From Cytophagales bacterium (lineage in GTDB: Bacteria; Bacteroidota; Bacteroidia; Cytophagales; CCMP332), in contig JANQSY010000176.1 of assembly GCA_028279065.1 (NCBI GenBank), positions 1 through 34,381 of the forward strand: DNA of 34,381 bases. The letters run 5' to 3'. The position numbers and the translations under genes are program-made. Numbering within the stretch: the first letter of the stretch is position 1; each line of letters starts with the position of its first letter. The notes beneath the pieces are model-generated. The model did no database searches and was not told the origin of the DNA. It worked only from the letters and a program-made list of their open reading frames with translations. Below, in pieces: positions 12,188 to 21,851 of the stretch.

Positions 12188-13071
12188 TTATTTCCCCAGG
12201 TGAAATACCCGGTTGATATTAAAACCAAAATACAGGTCCCCATTTGTAATATCTCCTGTTGTCTCAGCAATAAAGTACCGATCAAGCATACCATGTGAGT
12301 TGGTAATGTGCAAGGAGAACACATGGCCTCCGGTTTCAATATCAAATCCTACCGCCAGCATATCATAATAGACCGAGCCCTTCTGAGGGTTATTAAACTG
12401 GTAAACGTAATCTACATTCAAAGAGACCCGTTGGCTTAGCTTGAACCGTCCTCCCGCACCCAGAGCCCAGATGTCGTTGGGCTGCTCTTCATCCATGACC
12501 AGGTTCCTGTGTACCAGGGCAGGGCTAAGCTGGAAGGAGAATTTTGGGGAGAACTTTCGGGCGATCAAGATTTGATTTACATAGGCCATTCTCTGTTGGG
12601 TTGAGATCTCCGGTTCACCTTCTTCGGTCCTTAATGTCACCAGAGAGGCTTGGAAGAACCAGGATATGCTTAAGGGAAAATTCTTAGCTCCCTTGACCTG
12701 TCTGGCAAGCTTCAGCTTGAGTGTTCCGTCATAGGTCTTTTGGTATGAACTTCTTCCAATACCTACAGTGACCCTGTCGGTTATCCCATAGTCGAATCCG
12801 AATCGGATTGTGGAATAATCAAGTCCGAAAAGGTCGTAGATCCCTTCATTGATCCTCCCAAACCTGTGTTGGATTACAAAAAGGAGGTCTTTCTTAGGGA
12901 CATTTTCAATTGATTGTGTATTGACGATCCTGGTAGCCTTAAAGGTGGCATAGGCATACTCGGGCTCAGCTGTTTTTTCGGATTCCTCCTCAAGCATGCC
13001 AAGGAGGTCTTCCTGGCTAAAACTTAAGAGGGGGAAAAGAAAGAGTAAAAAAAAAACCTTTTCATATTCAT
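12188..13071 (-). CDS. DUF5777-like outer-membrane beta-barrel protein with homopolymer frameshift in the signal peptide
   Basis: The body (from about 13046 down) encodes an exported barrel: hydrophobic leader LLFLFPLLSFSQ, linker EDLLGMLEEESEK, then strands such as HRFGRINEGIYDLFGLDYSTIRFGFDYGITDRVTVGIG, typical of DUF5777-type Bacteroidota barrels that accompany YceI proteins. The natural start is the ATG at 13071, which forms an ATGA overlap with the stop of yceI and gives MNMKRFFF. That ATG is one frame away from the body because the T tract here is 10 long on the minus strand; 8 or 11 would be in frame. The only in-frame ATG upstream (13207) lies inside yceI and yields a non-secretory leader. 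So this is a sequencing slip, a pseudogene, or a phase-variable/slippage-dependent gene. Function of the barrel is unknown. Confidence 0.75.
13047..13056. repeat. A10/T10 homopolymer in the 5' end of the barrel gene
   Basis: Ten consecutive A on the plus strand (T in the coding sense), five codons after the coupled ATG at 13071, inside the signal-peptide coding region. It separates the start codon frame from the body frame by one base. Tracts of this length are prone to strand slippage in vivo and to sequencing miscounts. Confidence 0.9.
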
Positions 13072-13622
13072 TTTTTATAGGGTTGGTACACGATATCCAC
13101 GTTGACATCAACCACCTCGGCGATATTGTCAACCACAGTAGATGGGATCTTGATCTTATGGTCAGCAACCTTGACCTTGAAGGTACAGGTGCCTTGAAGT
13201 TTGTCACCTGTTCGTTTCAATTTGGCATCGGTGGAGTATTCTTTTGTTACACCATGGATGGTCAATTGACCAGTGATCTTCAGGTCGTATTCCCCATCCT
13301 TGCTTAGATCCAGATCATTAAAGTTGGTGATCCTTCCTTCGAACACCGACTTTGGGTATTTTTCTGATTCCAGATAGTTTTCGTTGAAATGTTCCTGCAT
13401 TAGGGCCTTCTCAAATTGAAAGCCCTTTATCAACATAGAGAATACGATATCTCCATTTTCCATATTGATGATGGATGAGACCTGATTATGATGAGCTTCT
13501 ATGTCTTCCACCGGGGCCTTCGAATAGAAAGAGATCTTCCCATCTCGGGAAAAATATTTGTTCTGTGCGTATGCTTCAAAACACAAAAAGATGATGAAAA
13601 ATAAAGGGAGATAGTTCTTCAT
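13068..13622 (-). CDS. YceI-family periplasmic lipid-binding-like protein
   Basis: 184 residues with a signal peptide (1-19, EAYAQ). The YceI lipocalin-like fold is recognised from DGKISFYSKAPVEDIEAHH, VFSMLIKGFQFEKALMQEHFNENYLESEKYP (the family HFnenYl-eseKYP segment) and ITGQLTIHGVTKEYS. YceI proteins are periplasmic beta-barrels that bind isoprenoid or other lipids in the cases characterised. It lies 9 bases after the triple CX4CH gene and overlaps the next barrel gene by ATGA. This order (c-type-like protein, YceI, DUF5777 barrel) suggests a shared envelope role, perhaps redox or quinone-lipid linked. That role is inference. Confidence 0.92.
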   Translation of the reverse strand: MKNYLPLFFIIFLCFEAYAQNKYFSRDGKISFYSKAPVEDIEAHHNQVSSIINMENGDIVFSMLIKGFQFEKALMQEHFNENYLESEKYPKSVFEGRITNFNDLDLSKDGEYDLKITGQLTIHGVTKEYSTDAKLKRTGDKLQGTCTFKVKVADHKIKIPSTVVDNIAEVVDVNVDIVYQPYKK

Positions 13623-13631
13623 GATTTCTAA

Positions 13632-14552
13632 TTATTCAGGAATTCCAGAATTGATCCAGTTTTTGATCCTTTCAATTGAACAAGGATCAAGAGCCCCAAC
13701 TTTGGGCATATCCGGGTCGGGCAATTCAGTTTTTTTGATGATCTTATCCAGATCCCCATCAGCTTGAATTGCAAGGAAGTCGTTATAACTTGTAAAATTC
13801 ATTTTCGGGTGGTTCCCATCATGGCAACCGGAGACGGCACAGCTTGCCTCGAAAATCAATTGGATATCATTGGTATATCTGGGTGTAGATGGACTACAGC
13901 CCCCTATACTATCACCTTCCGATTCAATTGCCCCCGCCTCGATCCACTTTCTCAATACCTCCTTGCTACATGAATCCAAGGTGGAATTTGGAGGCATTTG
14001 ATCTGATTCAACAGCCTTTTCCAGGATTAGCTGCCTATTGTTGTAGACGGCTAAATAATTGCTGAACCAAGGCCTTTGTGGACCGTCCAGGTGACATCCG
14101 GAAGTAGCACAGTTTTGGTCAATTATAGTTTTTACCTGACCATTATAGGCTAAAACTACGTTGGTGTCGCATTGAATATTTCCCCCCGTTGTATCGGCGG
14201 GAAATTCAGGTGCTCCATTATCTATCCAGGTCTTTAATTTCTCGATGCTGCATTGACCCAATGGACCGGAAGGAGGCATGGTCCTTTCAACCACAGCTCT
14301 CTGCATTATCTCATTCCTGTTAGCATAAACTGAGGGATAATTCGTGAGCAATGGTGTCTGGTTTCCTCCATGGCAGGTTGGTAAGGCACAATTTGCATTT
14401 ATGATCTGCTTGATACCCGTTTCGTAACTTAGCCCTGCAGTATCACATTCCTGGAGACCAGGAATATCATCGGGACCTTCATAGCTGCAGCTGTAAGATA
14501 TGATTCCAATCCAGGCCATTAATAAAGACTTTGGAGAAATGAGGGGTCTCAA
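13632..14552 (-). CDS. probable lipoprotein with three tandem CX4CH haem-like repeats
   Basis: 306 residues built of three repeats of about 95 residues. Each repeat has an NC/SC-x4-CH motif (CALPTCH, CATSGCH, CAVSGCH), then a stretch ending MPP or MPK, then a Cys-rich signature LxxCSxExLxxWIxxGA/I. The CX4CH form is known from some multihaem cytochromes, so covalent c-haem is plausible; the MPP methionine could be a distal ligand. Additional paired cysteines flank each unit and may form disulfides. The start is a TTG at 14552. A weak lipobox (SYSC, Cys about residue 22) is followed by acidic residues, as in surface lipoproteins of the phylum. It is the second gene of a four-gene envelope run. 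It could also be a non-haem disulfide-rich domain. Confidence 0.75.
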   Translation of the reverse strand: MRPLISPKSLLMAWIGIISYSCSYEGPDDIPGLQECDTAGLSYETGIKQIINANCALPTCHGGNQTPLLTNYPSVYANRNEIMQRAVVERTMPPSGPLGQCSIEKLKTWIDNGAPEFPADTTGGNIQCDTNVVLAYNGQVKTIIDQNCATSGCHLDGPQRPWFSNYLAVYNNRQLILEKAVESDQMPPNSTLDSCSKEVLRKWIEAGAIESEGDSIGGCSPSTPRYTNDIQLIFEASCAVSGCHDGNHPKMNFTSYNDFLAIQADGDLDKIIKKTELPDPDMPKVGALDPCSIERIKNWINSGIPE

Positions 14553-14567
14553 TCTGGGTTAACTTTG

Positions 14568-14966
14568 TTATTCAATATGGCATTTGTTTAACTGGACTTC
14601 ACCAAATAGCTCGTCAAATCCAATGAAAACTCCTTTTACCCTGATTTTTTCTCCCTTTTCAAATACGCTCTCCAAGGCACCATCCAGGCTGCAATTGGCC
14701 AACCTTCCTTGTTCGTCATGAATGATCAGAACTGGCTCCTTATCACCTGATTGGGAATTATAAAAACCCTCGATCAGAACAACTTTGTCTATGAGCTTCT
14801 TAAGAGTAGTATCCGGTTTCGATTCCAAATCTTCAAATATTTGGGAAAGAGTTAATTCAAAATCAGGGGCCTGAGCCTCAACACTTGGTGCAGGTCTGTT
14901 GACATAGTAGAAAACCAATAATGCCATCAGAAAAACAACGACTGCAAGCCAGGAAATTCTTTTCAT
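14568..14966 (-). CDS. membrane-anchored OB-fold (tRNA_anti-like) protein
   Basis: 132-residue protein with an N-terminal transmembrane helix (about 5-22) and a small extracytoplasmic domain. The domain pattern LIDKVVLIEGFYNSQSGDKEPVLIIHDEQGRLANCSLD ... GEKIRVKGVFIGFDELFGEVQLNKC resembles the OB-fold 'tRNA_anti-like' proteins seen in Bacteroidota envelope clusters. C98 and C130 could pair. It is the first gene of the run leading to the CX4CH protein, YceI and the DUF5777 barrel, with a 15-base gap to the next. Function unknown. Confidence 0.7.
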   Translation of the reverse strand: MKRISWLAVVVFLMALLVFYYVNRPAPSVEAQAPDFELTLSQIFEDLESKPDTTLKKLIDKVVLIEGFYNSQSGDKEPVLIIHDEQGRLANCSLDGALESVFEKGEKIRVKGVFIGFDELFGEVQLNKCHIE

Positions 14967-21789: not shown

Positions 21790-21851
21790 GTCGATGAATT
21801 TAAGGTTAATACTAGTAAAAGATAGGTCTTTTTTACTTTCCCTTCAAGGGA

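Follow-up and report, generated by a model that had tools for sequence, protein, structure and literature searches.

We suggest that a Cytophagales bacterium reads the gene of a likely outer-membrane barrel protein through a slippery homopolymer maintained in its signal-peptide code. In the window (the whole stretch of DNA that was analysed, 34,381 nucleotides), a run of ten thymidines on the minus strand places the start codon coupled to the preceding yceI-like gene out of frame with a DUF5777 beta-barrel reading frame, and a sister species carries the same tract with the same offset. The barrel gene is probably neither broken nor mis-sequenced. We place roughly even confidence in the reading that the tract is real and maintained, and that full-length protein would come from transcripts on which RNA polymerase has slipped. 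Tentatively, we extend this to the genus: the barrel would be permanently off-frame in the DNA and made only from slipped transcripts, with T10 serving as a fixed dosage control where the yceI and barrel genes are coupled. The same tentative reading would make this a conserved case of programmed transcriptional slippage within a Sec signal peptide.

Organisation of the locus

The T10 tract (A10 on the forward strand; positions 13047-13056, minus strand) lies within the signal-peptide coding region and is flanked by CCCTATAAAAAATGAATATGAAAAGG on its 5' side and ACTCTTTC on its 3' side. The ATG at 13069-13071 (minus strand) overlaps the stop codon of the yceI-like gene (ATGA), whose 3' end reads AAA AAA TGA, and the frame that it opens runs across the tract as MNMKRFFFYSFFSPS and closes at a TAA after 15 codons. 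Immediately 3' of the tract, the barrel reading frame (12188-13046, minus strand; stop codon at 12188-12190) supplies the remainder of the signal peptide (LLFLFPLLSFSQ) and then the mature protein, EDLLGMLEE...HLGK. It is unbroken from 12188 to the tract and matches the Pfam family PF19089 (DUF5777) end to end (profile positions 1-247 of 247, E = 3.1e-94, 315 bits against a gathering cutoff of 23.1). The preliminary description of this DNA was therefore right in all its coordinates, in the ATGA overlap, in the A10 tract that separates the ATG from an otherwise intact DUF5777-like barrel, and in its arithmetic that tracts of 8 or 11 would restore the frame. Its wording "surface-exposed" derives solely from the Pfam description of the family as a barrel. 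An AlphaFold2 model, built from an alignment of three sequences only, contained about 11 long strands at a pLDDT of 48.5, a quality too low for comparing folds. None of the papers in the literature searched mentions DUF5777 or describes its function. We also considered a start upstream of the tract in the barrel frame and rejected it, as the window allows only a GTG with a 50-residue extension and the sister species has a TAA directly before the tract.

Three genes precede the barrel gene on the minus strand. The run opens with a 132-aa protein that has no Pfam match (14568-14966) and is 68% conserved in the sister species. It is followed by a lipoprotein-like and possibly cytochrome-like protein with three C-x4-C-H motifs and no Pfam match (13632-14552), a similar gene standing before YceI in the sister species (L032). 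These motifs sit in repeated domains whose number differs between the two species, the sister protein having one such unit (144 aa). The third gene encodes a secreted YceI-domain protein (13068-13622; PF04264, E = 1.1e-15), which probably couples translation of the barrel gene through an overlap that the sister species has kept.

Fifty DUF5777 homologues from outside the genus were checked for comparison. All except one have an in-frame, ATG-started signal peptide (49 of 50), the remaining sequence (L031) being without its N-terminus, and none of the 50 carries an off-frame tract of this kind. A genome from a neighbouring genus (G002, a single contig) lacks the T-run and has an intact start overlapping yceI, and several barrel homologues across the order begin inside or shortly after a YceI-like end or a comparable gene upstream. 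A second DUF5777 paralogue, 35% identical, is present in the window's genome (G000:C165:2095-2877); no counterpart of it was matched in the sister genome.

Conservation of the tract and of the protein

Among 59 genomes searched as relatives, a single one, apart from the genome of the window itself, falls in the same genus: G001, the metagenome-assembled genome "Cytophagales bacterium PL24a_bin.2" (JANQHS01; contig JANQHS010000106.1). With it, the genus has two sequenced species, in a family of only three. A further search of genome contigs recovered only this species and a 47%-identical Crocinitomix protein, and a search of viral contigs gave no match. The orthologue in G001 likewise overlaps yceI (TATAAAAAATGAG) and shares with the window the T10 (L003/L032) and the one-base offset, in the same direction. 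The frame from the coupled ATG reads MRKLKFFFSPYSFL and then stops, while the barrel frame opens as TAA-GTT-TTT-TTT-TTC, with the TAA directly 5' of the tract. The first in-frame start lies 49 nt past the tract, inside the mature protein, and together with the TAA this leaves no alternative start that would give a signal peptide. Both flanks of the tract have diverged between the species, yet in each species they still encode the two parts of a single signal peptide: MNMKR in the window and MRKLK in G001, then FFF followed by LLFLFPLLSFSQ and FALLLPLTSFSQ, respectively (FFF..LLSFSQ and FFF..LTSFSQ). An A/T run of at least 9 thus stands at the frame junction in both species, and tract and offset have been kept in both while the protein is under purifying selection.

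The barrel proteins of the two species are 81% identical over 284 ungapped codons, with pS at 0.81 (saturated), pN at 0.12 and pN/pS at about 0.15, indicating that the barrel is under purifying selection in the genus, as judged from the codon comparison. It is the best conserved of eight genes compared (YceI 71%, the molybdopterin enzyme 71%, rhodanese 51%), and neither copy contains any other stop or indel. Of 98 two-codon residues common to both barrels, 54 have the same third base, which is about random, and under saturated synonymous change the chance that both species keep three TTT codons is consequently about 3-4%. We take this retention as modest evidence that selection may act on the tract and the shared offset as stronger evidence; conservation of the tract is in itself only moderately surprising, and the offset carries most of the weight.

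A slippage model and its alternatives

In the proposed mechanism, RNA polymerase would slip on T10 and give a fraction of mRNAs an in-frame U-run, and ribosomes finishing yceI would start at the overlapping ATG. Only slipped mRNAs would then yield a complete signal peptide, translation of unslipped mRNA stopping after about 15 codons. The tract could in this way act as a fixed gain control that keeps the barrel at some fraction of the amount of YceI, and a YceI-to-barrel ratio set by slippage would be a reasonable role for it. Slippage during replication of the tract could superimpose slower, heritable shifts from "low" to "full" expression and back. What we infer here, from comparing two genomes, is that slippage occurs, in which direction and how efficiently, and that it serves dosage. 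A/T runs of at least 9 cause efficient transcriptional slippage in bacteria, and documented slippage genes have their frame restored in about 12-50% of transcripts (PMC1088944, PMC5009743, PMC4256274). Slippage by the polymerase requires no additional signal, and the tract is then expected to keep a constant length.

The main rival is heritable ON/OFF phase variation, in which replication slippage alters the length of the T-tract, the barrel is expressed at in-frame lengths, and both assemblies happened to catch the majority OFF length. We regard it as possible, though rather unlikely as the full account, and it can coexist with slippage by RNA polymerase. It predicts much the same sequence pattern: a simple repeat sets the frame within coding sequence, the tract is conserved in the genus in front of a protein under strong purifying selection, a repeat placed where an envelope protein's signal peptide is encoded is the textbook arrangement known from Neisseria opa (PMC3960869), and poly-A/T is slippery for DNA polymerase too (PMC3711429). 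Against it, the two genomes compared, one from each species, show no length difference, both having exactly T10 and the same OFF state; neither genome has another clear off-frame tract in a conserved gene, unlike typical phase-variable genomes; and T10 should slip in transcription as well, which makes a clean OFF state doubtful. Polymerase slippage on a fixed T10 accounts no less well for the equal length, the off-frame state and the strong conservation of the protein. An alternative explanation at the level of translation is programmed -1 ribosomal frameshifting, which would join the short frame to the barrel frame on U UUU UUU. This heptamer stands in the right register and would give the right product in both species, but no significant stimulatory hairpin was detected (z = -0.75 and -0.43), and no conserved Shine-Dalgarno-like element was found at the usual distance, AAAAGG touching the tract in one species and CTTAAG in the other. 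Unstimulated heptamers in E. coli reach only 2-10 times a background of about 0.05%, clearly below 1% (PMC4066793), and we consider frameshifting improbable.

The preliminary description had left the choice between a miscounted homopolymer and a phase switch. An undercount of a true in-frame T11 would have to have affected both genomes. Both assemblies have draft status, dropping a single T from a long homopolymer is a frequent error, and a T11 would be the natural way to encode FFF plus the following L or F in either species. Such a miscount is unlikely because the separately assembled second species has the same T10 and offset, which would require two independent errors at orthologous sites, and because some 26 further A/T tracts of 9-11 that cross an ORF, with an A11 in each genome, are in frame. 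We read the k99-style name of the sister contig, typical of a short-read assembler, as pointing to a short-read (MEGAHIT) assembly, which also argues against a homopolymer error. A double miscount is possible but unlikely. Of the two earlier readings, control by slippage has therefore gained support while the miscount has lost it, and the two genomes, both at exactly T10, show no variation in DNA length such as the switch would bring; slippage of RNA polymerase had not been considered. The frame is broken as written, as in a recent or ancestral pseudogene, but a pN/pS of this order at saturated synonymous sites, in two copies free of further lesions, speaks against decay. That the barrel is the best conserved of the genes compared cannot be reconciled with a pseudogene in one species or the other, making this the least probable explanation. 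Weighed together, the comparisons support a gene that may be controlled by slippage.

Comparison with known systems

The locus appears to be a new case of a type of mechanism that is already known. In Shigella mxiE and spa13 and in Citrobacter rodentium tssM1, an A/T run likewise puts two halves of a protein in different frames, and polymerase slippage lets a share of the mRNAs, in most cases 15-30%, encode the full-length product (PMC5009743, PMC4256274, PMC1088944). Those genes encode regulators or secretion parts for which slippage was shown experimentally, whereas here slippage is deduced for the signal peptide of an envelope barrel, and the short product is, unlike theirs, only about 15 residues long. 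In Neisseria opa, too, the frame of an outer-membrane protein is decided by a repeat within its signal-peptide code, but there it consists of CTCTT pentamers with demonstrated length variation in a pathogen, as opposed to a single-nucleotide run that is equally long in the two species here (PMC3960869). In Bifidobacterium breve, genes for a surface structure, the pilus, also have a homopolymer close to their start, with the reference genome out of frame; this is a G-tract in Actinobacteria, and replication slippage was shown by deep DNA sequencing (PMC9187656). The conservation of frame-broken genes through poly(A) slippage in insect endosymbionts, with 12-50% corrected mRNAs (cited in PMC5009743), offers a further parallel, though in reduced, AT-rich genomes, whereas the present genome has 3.6 Mb with 12 A/T runs of at least 10 and the window a GC content of 44%. 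None of the papers that our literature search found describes slippage within an outer-membrane protein's signal peptide.

Gene finders call such homopolymer-offset genes broken, drop them or start them wrongly. An offset conserved at saturated synonymous distance suggests that, in draft Bacteroidota genomes, at least some genes that look "frameshifted" are genuine and rely on a non-standard step of reading. The locus also offers a simple test of whether slippage of RNA polymerase or of DNA sets the level of an envelope protein.

Other A/T tracts in the two genomes

All A/T runs of at least 9 were located in both genomes, giving 76 distinct sites in the window's genome (G000) and 60 in G001. 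Runs of at least 10 numbered 12 in G000 (3.59 Mb) and 7 in G001, the focal T10 being the only one in the window. Tracts were classed by ORF and codon usage without annotation, so that a few may lie in antisense ORFs; on this basis, 12 in G000 and 14 in G001, leaving aside the focal site and the locus L138 below, cross a long ORF without a change of frame, including the A11 of each genome (L072, and L083 in CoaBC). In both genomes, the focal tract is the only one that interrupts a conserved gene. The remaining tracts at which the frame seemed to change were set aside as gene boundaries, terminator-like sites or unclear short ORFs.

Four further sites were recorded. At L127:935-1299 (G000:C131, tract 21813-21821), a T9 stands right after an ATG that overlaps the stop of the preceding gene (AAATGAGG); the ATG frame reads MREISFFLTF and stops, and a 107-aa ORF runs on in another frame, a layout like that of the barrel gene. 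This ORF may not be a gene, since no relative of it was found in 28 related genomes. L138:640-1501 (G000:C170:9541-9549) has a T9 where a 214-aa ORF overlaps a 120-aa ORF of another frame; the ORFs matched nothing in Pfam, G001 or G002, and the case is ambiguous between a frame break and an ordinary overlap. In both species, a T10 (L069 at G000:C97:35002 and L082 at G001:C201:20911) follows a GGCC-rich inverted repeat just 5' of a ~415-aa ORF, presumably a Kdo transferase, and looks like a terminator abutting the start codon. Finally, both species have ATG-T9-AAC (L090 at G000:C15:3480 and L187 at G001:C361:3190) just before a gene that we take to be tsf (EF-Ts, MGVTAKEVNELR), possibly forming a short leader or spacer element.
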